In this document: in pieces, positions 34,374 through 40,743 of the stretch
How the letters are laid out: each line of letters begins with the position of its first letter
How positions within the stretch are numbered: position 1 is the first letter of the stretch
From: Chryseolinea sp. H1M3-3
GTDB lineage: Bacteria > Bacteroidota > Bacteroidia > Cytophagales > Cyclobacteriaceae
NCBI RefSeq assembly: GCF_029360725.1
Contig: NZ_JARKMY010000018.1
Coordinates: forward strand, 434,001-498,000
Length of the DNA stretch: 64,000 nucleotides
Direction of reading: 5' to 3'
The notes under the pieces: model-generated
Databases searched by the model: none
What the model saw: only the letters and a program-made list of their open reading frames with translations
Told to the model about the DNA's origin: nothing
Translations under genes and position numbers: made by a program

Positions 34374-36476
34374 TCAACTCACCACCGAGCCCGGAAAAAC
34401 AGCTTCCGAGGGCTGCAACAATTTCAATTTTCCATCGGCATCCTCCGCCATCAGCACCATGCCTTGCGATTCAATACCCATCATCTTTCTAGGAGCCAGG
34501 TTGGCAATCAGCGTTACTTGCTTTCCAATCATTTCCTCCGGAGAGAAATGCTGCGCAATGCCGCTTAACACGGTGCGCTTATCCACCCCGGTATCAATGG
34601 TAAGTTTCAACAGCTTGTTTGACTTCTCCATCTTTTCCGCTGCCAAAACTTTCCCGACACGGATGTCGAGTTTTGAGAAATCATCAAAGGTAACCTCTGG
34701 TTTTAAAGGTGCTACGTCGACTGTAACAGGTTCCATACTTTTTTTCTTATCGTGAAGCTTTTGCAATTGTTTCGCAATGACGTCGTCTTCAATTTTTTCG
34801 AAGAGCAGTGCCGCGGCACCCAGGGGATGCGTGGGATTCAACAAGGCATCCGACCCAGCATCACTCCAGCCTTTAGTCTCCAGGTTCAACATTGCATTGA
34901 TTTTCTTCGCGCTGAAGGGAAGAAAGACTTCGCCGACAATCGCCAGGTTTGCGGCAATCTGCAAGGCAATGTTTAGAATGGTACCTACCCGTGCCGGGTC
35001 TGTTTTATAAACTTTCCAGGGCTCTGTTTCCGCCAGGTATTTATTTCCCAACCGCGCTAGGTCCATCAGCCCTGCCGTTGCTTCACGGAATCTGTATTGT
35101 TCTATCGACGCAGCAATAGTTCTTGGATGTTCTTTCAATGCTCTGATAACCTCTTCATCTACAGGCTGCAATGTTCCGCGTGCAGGCACTTTGTTGTCAA
35201 AATACTTTTGCGTAAGCACCAACGCCCGGTTAATGAAGTTACCGAGGATAGCAACGAGCTCGTTATTATTTCGCGACTGGAAATCTTTCCAGGTAAATTC
35301 GCTGTCTTTGGATTCCGGTAAGTTGGCGAGCAGGCAATAGCGAAGCACATCTGGCTTGTCTGGAAAATCTTCAATGTATTCGTGCATTTCAATCGACCAT
35401 CCCCTGCTGGTTGACATCTTATCGCCCTCCAGGTTCATAAACTCATTGGCCGGTACATTGTCGGGAAGAATAAATTCACCATGCGCTTTCAGGATGATGG
35501 GAAAGATGATACAATGGAAAACGATATTATCCTTGCCAATGAAATGCACCAGTTTTGTTTCGGGATCTTGCCAGTAGGTTTTCCAGTCGTCCGCTTTCGC
35601 ATTTTTAAACTCGCGCTGGGGCTGTGCGTATTTTATTTTGCCAGACGTGATCTCCTGGAAGAAAGCGCGTGTAGCCGAAACGTAACCAATGGGCGCATCA
35701 AACCAGACGTACAATACTTTTCCCTCTGCATCGGGAAGCGGTACTTTTATACCCCAGTCGAGGTCGCGTGTCATGGCGCGGGCTTGAAGGCCTGCATCGA
35801 TCCATGACTTGCATTGACCATAAACGTTGGCTTTCCAGTCGTCGGCATGCTCTTTCAATATCCACTCCTGCAACCAGCCCTCATAATTTTGCAATGGCAG
35901 ATACCAGTGCTTCGTTTCGCGCAGCACGGGTGCTTTTCCTGTTAGGGTAGATTTGGGGTTGATCAATTCACGCGGACTTAACGTCGACCCGCACTTTTCA
36001 CATTGGTCGCCATAGGCGTTGGGGTTGCCACACTTCGGACACGTTCCCACAATATAGCGGTCAGCCAAAAACACATTGGCTTCATCGTCATAGTATTGTT
36101 CGGACACTTCTTCCGTTAACAATCCTTTATTATACAGGGTGAGGAAAATTTCCTGGGACGTTTCATGATGAATTTGCTCGCTGGTACGGTGATAAATGTC
36201 AAAGGCGATCCCCAGTTTTTTGAAGCAATCGTAAATCAGCTTGTGATATTTATCGATGATGGCCTGAGACGTTGTATTTTCCTTTAAGGCTTGGTTGGGA
36301 ATGGCCGTGCCATGTTCATCGCTTCCGCAGACGAACAAAACATCTTTGCCCGCGGAACGGAGGTAGCGAACATAAACATCGGAAGGAATGTAGGCCCCGG
36401 CCAGGTGACCAATGTGTTTGGGACCATTGGCGTACGGCAGCGCTGCCGTAACGGTATATCGTTTGAAATTCTTCAT
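34374..36476 (-). CDS. metG: Methionyl-tRNA synthetase
   Basis: A 700-residue class I aminoacyl-tRNA synthetase. The HIGH motif appears as HIGHLAGAY (residue 21 on), the zinc-binding insert as [18 protein letters not shown], and the KMSKS loop as KMSTSRG. The anticodon-binding helical domain follows, and a C-terminal OB-fold ([41 protein letters not shown]) of the Tyr/Met-RS-associated type closes the protein; this extension is standard for the long MetG form. The zinc knuckle shows it is a four-cysteine type. It is an essential housekeeping gene. The kinase gene lies 66 bases upstream on the same strand. Confidence 0.98.
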
Positions 36477-36542: not shown

Positions 36543-38678
36543 TTAGAAGGAAGAAGCTCTCAACAGCCTTTCCGATTCATTGTAAGGCGAAGGGGGAAAA
36601 ATAACATAGAATTCGGTATAGCCTTCGGGGGTGGTCAGCAAGCCTACTTTACCCCCAATTTTTTCAGTAGCAGTTTTCGTGATGTATAAGCCAATGCCGC
36701 CAGTCTCCGAACGTTCGGACAACCGGGAAAACATCTGGAACAATTTACCAGGACTGGATTCACTGATACCAATGCCATTGTCGATCACGCGGACTTTGGC
36801 GCCAGCGTTTGGCGTGGTTGTGATATGAATCTTAACAAATGATTTTACACGATCCGAGTCGTTATAGAATTTAATGGCATTATCGATCAGGTTTTCTAAT
36901 ACGATACGCACGAGCTCCTTATCTGATTCAACGCTCACGTCCTCGTCAATTTGAGGAATGATAAGCAACTCCTGGGGTACACCTTTTTTTCGTTCCAGTA
37001 ACAACACATCGCTAACGATACTTTTAAAATCGATGCGTTCAATAGAAAGTTTTGAGTTGTTGATTTGATTGATGATCACCAGTCGTGTAAGGATCGTGTT
37101 CAGGCGTTCCGCAGTCGCATCGAGTTTTTTTAAGTAGTCTAATGCAACTTCATCTTTCACATCCATCAGGGCCACGTTGCACATGCCTTTTAAACTCGCC
37201 AACGGTCCGCGGATATCGTGAGAGGTTTTGTAAATAAAATTGTCCAGCTCGTCATTAACTTGTTTCAACGATGTATTTGCGCGGGCAAGGTCCGCCGTTT
37301 TCTTTTCGACCTGGTAGTCAAGTTCTTTATTCTTGTTTGCAAGCTCCAAGTTCTTTTCCTGGATCACTTCTTTGGCTTCTGAAAGTTTTGCATTAACTCT
37401 TTTGATGTTTCGATTACCGAACTGCAACACCAAAACAAGAAGACCTGCAAGAAGCGCGATAACAGCTACCGCAATGTTCAGATTGTGCTGTTGTTTGATT
37501 AGAACTTCGTTGGAAGCAATTGTCGCTATGTTTTTTCTCTCTTCATATTGAGTTTGGACCTTTGCAATATTTTTAACAAGGTCTTCTCTGAATAAACTGT
37601 CTGTTAACCTAATATATTTGTCCTGGTAAATTGTAGCATTTCTGAAATCATTCGTCTGGCTATACACGAAGGAAAATTGTTTGTATACATCTACTAATAG
37701 CTGATTATAACCCGAACGTGAAGCAATGGAGTCAGCTTTGTTTAAATGATTAATTGCCTCATCATATTTCTTTTTTTGAATATCAATCAGTCCAAGGTAA
37801 ATCAAGTTTTCAGCCTGGAATCTTTTATCGTTAGTCCGTAGTGCTAGATTTAGTGATTCTTTAAACTGATTCTCAGCACGGTCGATTTCTCCCAACCAAA
37901 ACGAAGATTCTCCTAGACCGAATTTTCCCTGTATTTTGATTTGATCATCACACCTGTCACCGCACAATGACAATCCTTTATTAATATCCTGAATCGCTTC
38001 TTCAAACTTTTTTAGATGAACAAAGCATAGGGCTCTGTTTATATAAATCTTTTCTAGTTCGAGCTCGTCACCAACCTGCGCCTTCAAATCCAAGGTTTGG
38101 TTATAGTATTTTAACGCTGATTCATAATTTTTTAGTTTGTAATAGATCAAACCAATATTATTCATTGCAATACTCATCTCCGCTTTATCTCCCTCGTTCT
38201 CTCTGACGACCAAAGATTGAAAATTATACTCCAATGCTTTGTCATAATTAGCCTGGAACGTGTAAGCCAAAGCAAGTGCATTTAGAATTTTCTTATAGTG
38301 TTCGTCATATTTATTTCGCTTAGCAATCGGAAGAATATCAGTGAGAATATCTATTGATTCTTGAAGTCTATCAAATCTTCTTAGCATTTGACCCTTGATC
38401 CTTCCTGCCATTACGATTTGTGCCGAATCACCTAACTGTTTCGCAAGAACATATGCCTCGCTAGAATATTCAAGCGATCGAACTTTATCTGTGTCAAAAA
38501 ACTCATATGCTAATGACACTTTAGCATCTAACTCTTCCTTGTCACTACCTGCATTGTCAAGTGCCTGCATTAAGGAATCTATTCTTCTTTTATCTTGAGA
38601 TTTCGCATCAAAAAAAATTGATGCGCAAAAGACAAAAGTGACTATAAGTTTCGCGGCATTAAAAAATTTATAATACAC
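36543..38678 (-). CDS. TPR-containing sensor histidine kinase
   Basis: A 711-residue inner-membrane kinase starting at a GTG. A signal-like start (1-27) leads into at least seven TPR units (about 45-380) that should be periplasmic; a membrane helix spans 400-420; a coiled coil (430-478) follows; the HisKA box holds His487 in KTSHDIRGPLAS; and the ATPase domain shows ENLIDNAIKF, VIDNGIGI and GGIGLYIT. No receiver domain follows, so a separate response regulator is needed, and none is in the window. The TPR array is a peptide-binding fold. Three tiny exported peptides start 112 bases away on the other strand, with a shared promoter region, which makes them possible ligands. Confidence 0.95.
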   Translation of the reverse strand: MYYKFFNAAKLIVTFVFCASIFFDAKSQDKRRIDSLMQALDNAGSDKEELDAKVSLAYEFFDTDKVRSLEYSSEAYVLAKQLGDSAQIVMAGRIKGQMLRRFDRLQESIDILTDILPIAKRNKYDEHYKKILNALALAYTFQANYDKALEYNFQSLVVRENEGDKAEMSIAMNNIGLIYYKLKNYESALKYYNQTLDLKAQVGDELELEKIYINRALCFVHLKKFEEAIQDINKGLSLCGDRCDDQIKIQGKFGLGESSFWLGEIDRAENQFKESLNLALRTNDKRFQAENLIYLGLIDIQKKKYDEAINHLNKADSIASRSGYNQLLVDVYKQFSFVYSQTNDFRNATIYQDKYIRLTDSLFREDLVKNIAKVQTQYEERKNIATIASNEVLIKQQHNLNIAVAVIALLAGLLVLVLQFGNRNIKRVNAKLSEAKEVIQEKNLELANKNKELDYQVEKKTADLARANTSLKQVNDELDNFIYKTSHDIRGPLASLKGMCNVALMDVKDEVALDYLKKLDATAERLNTILTRLVIINQINNSKLSIERIDFKSIVSDVLLLERKKGVPQELLIIPQIDEDVSVESDKELVRIVLENLIDNAIKFYNDSDRVKSFVKIHITTTPNAGAKVRVIDNGIGISESSPGKLFQMFSRLSERSETGGIGLYITKTATEKIGGKVGLLTTPEGYTEFYVIFPPSPYNESERLLRASSF

Positions 38679-38789
38679 GAGTGATTAAGAAAATTTTATT
38701 TCTACAAAAAGCTTGATGCAATGCTCCAACTTTGACATATCAATTTAGTTCGAAAAAAAACGAATTCAAAAAACCTAAATATACGAGCC

Positions 38790-38921
38790 ATGAAAAAAAC
38801 TATCTACTGTCTACTATTCGCTATCGCCGCCTCTCTAACTTTTTCAGCTTGCACTGAAGAAGAAGTATCTCCATCTCCAATTGAAATGAATGGCGGTGGT
38901 GGTGGAATCGATCCCAAATAA
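38790..38921 (+). CDS. Tiny exported peptide 1 (probable lipoprotein), 43 aa
   Basis: Reads as a signal peptide ending FSAC (Cys21) and then an acidic stretch (TEEEV), a proline-serine segment and a C-terminal GGGGGIDPK. With lipobox cleavage the mature peptide would have 23 residues. The gene is the first of three on the strand opposite the TPR kinase, and its C-terminus is shared with the second peptide, so selection clearly acts on the nine last residues. The start is fixed by the signal peptide; no other ATG is near. It is below the usual size cut-off and is easily missed by gene finders. Confidence 0.75.
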   Translation: MKKTIYCLLFAIAASLTFSACTEEEVSPSPIEMNGGGGGIDPK

Positions 38922-38975
38922 TCAAGCAGACACTTAACTAGCATCTTCAATAAGCCACATCAAAAAACTAAACCT

Positions 38976-39110
38976 ATGAAAAAAATTATTTACCTATTAC
39001 TGTTCGCAATCGCTGGATCATTGACAATCACTTCATGCACCGAAGAAGAAGTTACTCCAACAACAGAACTTAGTCGAAACGGTGGTGGTGGTGGAATCGA
39101 TCCTAAATAA
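38976..39110 (+). CDS. Tiny exported peptide 2 (probable lipoprotein), 44 aa
   Basis: A paralogue of the preceding peptide: same KKIIYLLLFAIAGSLTITSC signal layout, same CTEEEVTP start of the mature part and the same GGGGGIDPK end, while the linker between is different (TTELSRN). Conserved start and end with a variable middle, plus two copies in tandem, is the pattern of secreted signal peptides or of lipoprotein tags. The lipobox ITSC with Cys21 is good. Coding is further supported by many third-position differences between the two genes that keep the amino acids. Reader should treat function as open. Confidence 0.75.
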   Translation: MKKIIYLLLFAIAGSLTITSCTEEEVTPTTELSRNGGGGGIDPK

Positions 39111-39159
39111 TTGATCTCAAATAGTTTAAACAAGTTTAAAAATTCTTAAAAACGATAAT

Positions 39160-39333
39160 ATGAAAACTAAATCATTAATCCTTATAGCATTCGCGGCCAT
39201 CATCACTTTATCATTTTCTTTTGCTGCCACAACTCGTTCTGAAAAACTTAGCTCAAAATCAACAACAACTTCTACTGTCAATCAACATGCTGATGCGCCA
39301 GCTGGTGGCTTCATCGCTGAAGATAAATTCTGA
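39160..39333 (+). CDS. Tiny exported peptide 3, 57 aa
   Basis: A signal peptide (MKTKSLILIAFAAIITLSFS, then FAA as a type I cleavage site) is followed by a Ser/Thr/Lys-rich linker and a C-terminal DAPAGGFIAEDKF. It does not share the GGGGGIDPK end but has the same plan (signal, low-complexity spacer, short conserved-looking tail with Gly-Gly). I have a recollection of similar small Bacteroidota proteins ending in GG...EDKF, not checked. It is 49 bases after peptide 2, so all three are likely to be on one transcript. Confidence 0.65.
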   Translation: MKTKSLILIAFAAIITLSFSFAATTRSEKLSSKSTTTSTVNQHADAPAGGFIAEDKF

Positions 39334-39756: not shown

Positions 39757-40743
39757 TCAAAAAATCGCTGTTTTCGGGGATTTTTCTTTATAAGCAGCGC
39801 GGGGTTTTAGCTCCAATTTTTGGAACATTTCGCGGTCCTGGAGGGTTCCAGGATTGGGTGTAGTAAGCAGTTTATCGCCTGCAAAAATGCTGTTGGCGCC
39901 TGCCAAAAAACAGAGGGCCTGCTCTTCTAAATTCATTCGAACACGGCCTGCAGATAACCGTATCATCGTCTTCGGCATAATGATTCTCGCCGTTGCAATC
40001 ATTCGCACCATCTCCCATACAGAAACCTTTGGCTGATCTTCCAGCGGCGTTCCTTCAACAGGAACCAACGCATTTACCGGCACGGATTCAGGATGCTCTT
40101 TCAACGTAGCCAATACCTGCAGCATGCCAATACGATCTTCTTCCTGCTCTCCCATTCCGATAATTCCTCCGGAGCACACGGAGATCTTGGCTTCACGCAC
40201 GTTCTCCAGCGTCTCCAGGCGATCATCGTAAGTTCGTGTGGAAATGATATCGTTATAAAATTCTTTGCTTGTATCGAGGTTATGATTGTATGCGTATAGC
40301 CCGGCGTCTTTTAGCTTCTGTGCCTGCTCCGGTGTAAGCATGCCCAGCGTGCAGCATACTTCCATGCCCATGGTGCTCACACCTTTTACCATCTCAATCA
40401 CTTTATCGAAGTCACGGTTGTCGCGCACTTCGCGCCATGCTGCACCCATGCAGAAACGTGTGCTGCCACTTTCTTTTGCCTCCATCGCTTTGCTCAGCAC
40501 TTCTTTTACTTCCATCAGCTTCTCCACCTTTACGTCGGTGTGATAACGGGCGGCCTGTGGGCAGTACGAACAATCTTCCGGACATCCTCCTGTCTTTACC
40601 GAAAGCAAGGTGCATACCTGCACTTCCTGCGGGTCATGGAACTCACGGTGCACGGTGGCACCCTGGTAAATTAAATTCAGGATGGGTTGATTGTATATTT
40701 CGCTGATCTCTTCACGGGTCCAGTTATTCCGAATGGTGGTCAT
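39757..40743 (-). CDS. bioB: Biotin synthase
   Basis: A 328-residue radical SAM enzyme that inserts sulfur into dethiobiotin to give biotin. The CxxxCxxC cluster motif is Cys54-x3-Cys58-x2-Cys61 ([12 protein letters not shown]). Other family marks are [37 protein letters not shown], the [12 protein letters not shown]-type segment ([17 protein letters not shown]) and [39 protein letters not shown]. The length is normal and all segments are present. No other biotin gene is adjacent. It ends 25 bases before the coding sequence of sppA on the same strand begins its own end, and so may share an upstream promoter with it. Confidence 0.98.

Follow-up and report, generated by a model that had tools for sequence, protein, structure and literature searches.

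Putative peptide ligands encoded beside a TPR-sensor histidine kinase in the Cyclobacteriaceae

In the RRNPP (or RRNPPA) systems, among them Rap-Phr, NprR, and PlcR-PapR, a small exported peptide is encoded together with its receptor, a superhelix of tetratricopeptide repeats (TPRs). In the Gram-positive systems Agr and ComD, an exported peptide with species-specific variants is encoded next to its cognate sensor kinase; these kinases sense through a polytopic membrane domain, and their peptides have dedicated processing and export. TPR-sensor kinases are also frequent in the Bacteroidota. One of them, FimS of Porphyromonas gingivalis, has a periplasmic sensor with eight TPRs, and its signal was still reported as unknown in 2024 (PMC11053733). 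Here we analyze a locus in a 64,000-nt stretch ("the window") of the 6.9-Mb genome of Chryseolinea sp. H1M3-3 (Bacteroidota), where a TPR-sensor histidine kinase faces three tiny genes for exported peptides. On balance, we judge it probable that the exported tails are ligands of the kinase, so that peptides and kinase would form a co-inherited ligand–receptor module.

In the model that we propose, two kinds of envelope peptide would end in the same short, free carboxyl-terminal tail. Type A would carry it on a lipid anchor, and type B on a hydrophobic leader that may itself be an inner-membrane anchor. Both tails would fit into the groove on the concave side of the TPR superhelix in the periplasm, and binding would alter kinase activity toward a response regulator encoded elsewhere. 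One tail shown from two places could act as signal and competitor; use of one receptor site would also account for A and B tails that change together. The tails might come from the cell itself, as a gauge of its envelope or lipoprotein traffic, or from neighbors, as a pheromone, and we consider these origins about equally likely. A preliminary description of the locus had likened it to a pheromone-receptor set: "receptor set" seems the best reading, whereas "pheromone", meaning cell to cell, is one of two signaling versions.

A linked, co-varying peptide family would be a concrete candidate ligand for TPR-sensor kinases, the class to which FimS belongs and of which this genome encodes several, and it opens the ligand question to tests with synthetic peptides. 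Secretion of the peptides as signals would mean that members of a Gram-negative phylum communicate by peptides; otherwise, the module would give a cell a new means of monitoring its lipoprotein traffic. Among the open-access matches listed, neither a receptor layout combining a periplasmic-TPR kinase with peptides nor such a peptide/TPR-kinase module is described; bioRxiv and most subscription journals lay outside that scope.

The Locus and Its Distribution

The kinase gene (36543..38678, minus strand; 711 aa, GTG start) was first described as divergent from three tiny open reading frames across 111 bases, and both the coordinates and the gap (38679..38789, from the kinase start to the first peptide ATG) are borne out. 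Peptides P1 (38790..38921, plus strand; 43 aa) and P2 (38976..39110, plus; 44 aa) do end alike, in GGGGGIDPK; their tail codons (38892..38918 and 39081..39107, both plus) show one synonymous difference within the last eight codons. P3 (39160..39333, plus; 57 aa) ends in GGFIAEDKF (39304..39330, plus). All three have export leaders, as had been claimed, but they are not of one kind: P1 and P2 are lipoproteins with Cys at residue 21, whereas the hydrophobic leader of P3 is Cys-free. The locus therefore encodes two distinct exported families, A and B.

Two samples were searched: 295 genomes of the family, and a 390-genome draw of the order. Of the five other genomes sampled from the genus, four have kinase orthologues, 63–66% identical, in the interval from metG to bioB, and in each the kinase faces A and B genes. 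G015, the fifth, yields only a distant TPR match, which a contig end interrupts. The five B peptides that were found first, taken as a profile, match 52 of the 295 family genomes (E≤0.01): five of the genus, 40 from which the locus was fetched, and seven not in that fetch (G137 followed later). B is present at all 40 fetched loci (40 genomes), and a kinase with an adjoining A gene at 39. The exception (L113) starts at a contig end, and the same genome (G260) has a kinase and A at the end of another contig (L159).

The reverse search, with a sensor profile, matches 66 of the 295 genomes at E≤1e-55. A lies beside the kinase in 64 of them (63 in the module table, plus G260 with L159); in the remaining two, G015 and G203, the loci are interrupted by contig ends. 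The 14 new loci fetched through the kinase come from 13 genomes, 11 without a B match in the earlier search and two with weak ones; 13 loci have A and 10 have B, the peptide-less one (L137) being a truncated contig. The total is 66 modules in 64 genomes and 10 genera, with A in 66/66 and B in 62/66 at the table's hidden Markov model thresholds (A, E<1e-5; B, E<0.02, a limit that the second module of G293 misses with its weak B). Outside this total are one further module in another genus (L158, in G115) and the contig-split module of G260 (L159, L113).

When 32 module genomes are searched with a profile built from 33 A peptides, 56 matches reach E≤5e-9, every one at the kinase locus. The kinase–peptide linkage in the preliminary description is thus well supported from both sides: strong A matches lie at the kinase, and orthologues chosen by their kinase carry peptides. 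A search for the tail word itself, akin to the one it had suggested, gave way to these profiles: GGxxIDPK-stop occurs in one of the 295 family genomes, twice, and that genome is the host itself. A widespread tail motif was accordingly rejected.

In the order draw, no B match outside the family is better than E 8e-6, and the frames of these matches are all at least 109 aa long; most of the matches lie over the leader, and one (G564) covers positions 1–49 of 54 in a 200-aa frame. Strong B matches are confined to the same family, and the module is therefore family-restricted as sampled. (A kinase scan with back-translated patterns found only three loci, in Chryseolinea serpens, C. lacunae, and a metagenome-assembled genome of the Cyclobacteriaceae, and was too narrow.)

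The module shares its flanks, metG and bioB or sppA, at 49 of 64 fetched loci, several of the others being short contigs, and it occurs in other neighborhoods at L144 and L158. The module is duplicated in two genomes, G283 (L143, L144) and G293 (L146), and every copy has a kinase and an A gene of its own. Chance reading frames, or unrelated neighbors held together by synteny, would be in keeping with the shortness of the frames and the same neighborhood at most loci; we consider this most improbable in view of the 66 modules, those located elsewhere (L144, L158), purifying selection on the frames, and the tail covariation described below.

Two Kinds of Exported Peptide

In 16 sister-species comparisons of A and B, nonsynonymous divergence (dN) is 0–0.15 and synonymous divergence (dS) 0.19–1.3, with dN/dS at most about 0.3. 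The peptide reading frames are under purifying selection, and the protein-level conservation on which the preliminary description had staked its reading is found.

The A copies are tandem, up to four per module. Among paralogous pairs, the last eight residues are identical in 37 of 48; 21 of these pairs have leaders less than 80% identical, and 16 of the 21 have synonymous differences in the tail codons (a count made only among pairs with identical tails). The four A genes of G186 all end in AISETGGF, for example, although one leader is only 16–21% identical to the rest. That the tail is what is kept is therefore true of copies within a module and not of a single word across species, whose tails (GGGGGIDPK, SERI, KDDPGF, and PIKE, for example) differ. 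One G019 locus (L147, 5301-5474) has a sole peptide by the kinase, with an A-type leader, a longer odd body, and the end GDQKWE; it is perhaps ancestral or fused.

All 60 distinct A sequences from the first 45 loci have the lipoprotein features, a Cys at about position 21 preceded by Ser or Ala, and 88 of 90 distinct A sequences have at least two acidic residues among the four after the Cys. Because acidic residues behind the Cys resemble the surface-export signal of Bacteroidota lipoproteins (PMC5080379), type A probably resides in the outer membrane and may be exposed to the outside. In type B, an [AV]xA site at positions 17–30 occurs in just 16 of 67 sequences, and basic residues lie behind the hydrophobic part. 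Since most lack a signal peptidase I site, B may remain at the inner membrane, anchored there.

These same features (the acidic residues resembling the export signal just cited, and the scarce [AV]xA sites and basic residues of B) would also suit peptides that stay in the cell, with A reporting lipoprotein maturation, sorting, or surface export, and B a resident competitor. Here A would bind the kinase only when lingering at the inner membrane; this is a sub-case of the ligand model with overlapping likelihood. There is precedent in NlpE-CpxA, where a lipoprotein that is retained at the inner membrane binds a periplasmic sensor kinase and acts on it; unlike A, however, NlpE is a folded protein, and CpxA is not known to have TPRs. 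The mostly single module per genome (66 in 64) and the neighborhood shared by 49 of 64 loci likewise favor an internal role. Species-diversified tails are unexpected for a purely internal gauge, and several A copies bearing one tail also argue against it; we regard this sub-case as somewhat doubtful.

The candidate peptide promoter bears on a different alternative. A TTTG box at 38731-38734, within the divergent region, is a candidate −7 element; we take TTTG to be the Bacteroidota −7 consensus. Of 65 sequences, 50 have TTTG 30–110 nt 5′ of their first A gene, where mononucleotide shuffles predict 12.8, although these counts may be optimistic because the control is simple base shuffling. Such a conserved promoter-like box, along with tandem A copies (up to four) and a divergent layout typical of a regulator and its target, could mean that the peptides are the output: surface or antagonistic effectors, whose transcription the kinase controls and whose tails covary through a common processing enzyme or target. 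We think this unlikely. Kinase and peptides duplicate together, the predicted TPR fold is of a peptide-binding kind, and lipopeptides recur by other TPR sensors in other gene orders; moreover, no constant processing, immunity, or transport gene was seen by eye among the larger reading frames of 24 loci, for which no domain search was made.

A and B Tails Vary Together

In many modules, the A and B tails match: SERI with SERI; SEKI with SEKI; FERI with LERI; KDDPGF with KDDTTF; and GGIGSDPK with GGIVSEDH. A module with the pair ADGPY and EDQAY has a relative with, instead, ADGPF or ADDAF and ADQAF.

Within-genus shuffling of B was applied to the 62 modules with both A and B (59 after repeated tail sets are dropped), in 24 tests that combine window, score, and set. 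Shuffles reach the observed A–B tail similarity in 0/2000 cases in 23 tests and in 1/2000 in the other (z 4.0–6.3). The same shuffling finds no A–B signal in the controls, leaders (z −1.8) and spacers (z 0.1). The final residue is identical in A and B in 23 of 62 modules, compared with about 10 expected if independent, a figure uncorrected for kinship.

Kinship was addressed with 29 disjoint pairs of nearest relatives, drawn from 59 modules whose kinase exceeds 600 aa; disjoint pairing of nearest relatives removes most shared ancestry. For the last five residues, 11 pairs are positive, two negative, and 16 zero (sign p=0.011, sign-flip p=0.0011), and the controls are null. At other tail lengths the support weakens: the last four residues give 9 positive to 3 negative (sign p=0.073, flip 0.0087); the last six give 12 to 7 (sign p=0.18, flip 0.025); and local alignment of the last 8 or 10 gives sign-flip p=0.11 or 0.20. 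Some A/B pairs are also unlike, such as NPNTGGH and GGFVAEDKY. The correlation of A-tail with B-tail distances, given the neighboring genes, is weak (r=0.10, 18/3000) despite the strong direct similarity. From their covariation, the A and B tails probably meet the same partner, and we consider the evidence for one common partner to be good.

The Kinase as Candidate Partner

Pfam finds TPR_12 in four stretches of the window kinase, with HisKA (about residues 479-534) and HATPase_c (586-696) above cut-off, so the protein has the H-box, N-box, and G-box of a sensor histidine kinase. Among full-length orthologues, DNGxG is present in 63/63 and SHDx[RK] in 59/63. By hydropathy, Pfam, and the structural model, the amino-terminal part is made up in order of a hydrophobic leader segment; about eight TPRs (residues 28-395; 37494..38597, minus strand); and a single transmembrane helix (about residues 398-421; 37416..37487, minus; Kyte-Doolittle peak 2.93). 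With a leader before them and one transmembrane helix after, the TPRs should lie beyond the inner membrane.

The AlphaFold2 model of the sensor (mean confidence, pLDDT, 88.6 from a four-sequence alignment; model residues 340-373 below 50) is a superhelix of about eight TPRs, with a long low-confidence helix toward the membrane at its end. Foldseek places LGN/Pins at the top, with structure titles that name complexes with Inscuteable, NuMA, and Frmpd4; NprR (5dbk) ranks 31 and Rap-CSF (4gyo) ranks 33. LGN/Pins is a eukaryotic cytoplasmic scaffold and not a sensor. The sensor is thus predicted to have a TPR fold of the peptide-binding type.

The modeled superhelix carries a ladder of Asn residues at like positions of successive first TPR helices: N133, N174, and N214 are each conserved in 59/59 orthologues, and N291 in 43/59. 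In the usual TPR layout, first helices line the groove. Two sensor cysteines, C239 and C243, are conserved in at least 95% of the 59. In RapF, an RNPP-conserved TPR Asn grips the peptide backbone, and the peptide must have a free carboxylate (PMC3601957).

Tail and sensor distances correlate in partial Mantel tests with flanking genes and transmitter removed (54 modules with neighbor genes: A, r=0.205; B, r=0.263; 0/3000 each). Leader parts of A and B correlate with the sensor too, so the signal is not tail-specific, and for that reason we rejected tail–sensor coevolution as proof of binding. Column covariation and helix tests used the 59 modules with kinases above 600 aa. Covariation with the tails is stronger for sensor than for transmitter columns (p=8e-9), yet the sensor itself varies more as well.

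Several further results weigh, as do the two limits just given, against the kinase as partner. The presumed groove helices show no overall enrichment over the outer helices (p=0.24), though two of four features reach p=0.04. The N-box pattern matches just 49/63 full-length kinases. No response regulator adjoins the kinase in the window. Four extra TPR kinases adjoining modules are peptide-free, and the filter used found no small leader peptides at another TPR array of the host genome (L044).

Relation to Known Families

P1–P3 reach no curated cut-off in Pfam or NCBIfam. PHROGs gives weak matches to phrog_542, of unknown function (P1, E 1.7e-4; P2, E 0.0047), and scans of 31 B and 33 A members yield weak E-values only, the best 1e-05. 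Four family assignments were tried and rejected. The PhrA family NF033799 has two of 31 B members at E≤0.01: one, rescanned, matches over residues 1-34 of its 55 and at 20.7 bits stays below the cut-off of 40, and the other has a best E of 8.4e-05; P3 has no PhrA match at E up to 1. The PG1828 family NF050142 matches P1 and P2 at 19.3 and 20.5 bits (residues 1-26) against a cut-off of 50, and 19 of 33 A members at E≤0.01 (best 1e-05). DUF6520 (PF20130) matches P3 at 18 bits against 25.4, and five of 31 B members at E≤0.01 (best 0.0024). The FimS equivalog NF053520, the best NCBIfam match of the kinase, scores 148.3 bits against 600.

A precursor model for ribosomally synthesized and post-translationally modified peptides (RiPPs) matches three of 33 A members weakly (best E 6.2e-4). 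With their small size and GG motif, the peptides might on this showing be RiPP or bacteriocin precursors with a regulator. The leaders resemble ordinary export leaders, and by eye no maturase or dedicated transporter is common to the listed loci, whose flanks had no domain search; a C39-like transporter lies near L144 only. We consider such precursors very unlikely.

Compared with RRNPP systems, the module is similar in having an adjoining gene for a propeptide whose export is inferred from its leader (A in 66/66 modules), in the predicted fold match to NprR and Rap-CSF, and in the conserved Asn on presumed groove helices. RRNPP receptors are cytoplasmic, with a helix-turn-helix (HTH) or Rap three-helix effector; here the TPRs precede a transmembrane helix, HisKA, and HATPase_c. 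The receptor is instead a membrane histidine kinase with extracytoplasmic TPRs, in a Gram-negative host, with two peptide families, one of them lipid-anchored. The Gram-positive Agr and ComD systems differ in another way: dedicated processing and export genes were not seen beside this module. Thus, the module would work like peptide-receptor signaling but is not a member of RRNPP, by its receptor topology, nor of the FimS equivalog.

Other Lipopeptides beside TPR Sensors

The A profile also gave 29 weaker A-like matches; 16 were fetched (10 and then 6), and 13 were left out. Nine of the first ten (frames of 54–134 aa, off the main locus) adjoin a different TPR gene. At L161–L164 (G252; three distinct loci, L162 and L163 apparently being near-identical copies from one genome), a short lipopeptide adjoins a TPR lipoprotein of about 450–470 aa and an HTH-like gene, with Pfam run on L161 only. 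At L165, L166, L167, L169, and L170 the order is lipopeptide, TPR kinase, response regulator, and TIR protein; the lipopeptide tail resembles EDDPIxIPPPPxKP, and Pfam, run on L165 only, finds HisKA_2, LytTR, and TIR. L201, L202, and L203 have the same order by eye, for a total of eight genomes. This order could possibly represent a peptide-gated TIR system.

A profile of the five TIR-order peptides has matches at E<1e-16 in 3/375 order genomes, of which one had supplied a seed peptide; all other matches cover just the leader or fall at the main locus. In a rough control of six matches in frames of 119–416 aa, five have no TPR match within about 12–13 kb, and the sixth is L203. Lipopeptides beside different TPR sensors therefore appear to follow a recurring plan. 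Tentatively, and with some doubt, we extend the proposal to a general form of Bacteroidota peptide signaling, in which a cognate TPR kinase or TPR lipoprotein would recognize the free tails of short anchored peptides. Lineages would have "pherotypes" of their own, and one branch would have operons that end in TIR. If so, this would be Gram-negative peptide-pheromone signaling in which a single groove is contested by two ligands with different anchors.

Neighboring Genes

NarL-type regulators near two modules were weighed as kinase partners and not assigned. One (L045, 15412-16041, in G182), NarL-like by eye, directly follows metG, two genes from the kinase; over its amino-terminal part it shares 75% identity with a protein encoded in L044, the TPR array of the host genome of the window (C12:667000-685000). 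That array has five sensor-like TPR proteins (no HATPase by Pfam in the one scanned), a NarL-like regulator, and a 222-aa kinase-like protein. Beside the duplicated module of G283 (L144, 5444-12461) are a LuxR-type response regulator, a HATPase-less TPR protein, and a 223-aa protein with HATPase_c and a borderline HisKA_3; by eye, there is also a C39-peptidase ABC exporter-like transporter with an HlyD-like partner, and the transporter is not common to modules.

In the window, the syntenic flanks are a metG-like gene (34374..36476, minus strand) and a bioB-like gene (39757..40743, minus), both named by eye from sequence and both outside the proposed mechanism.

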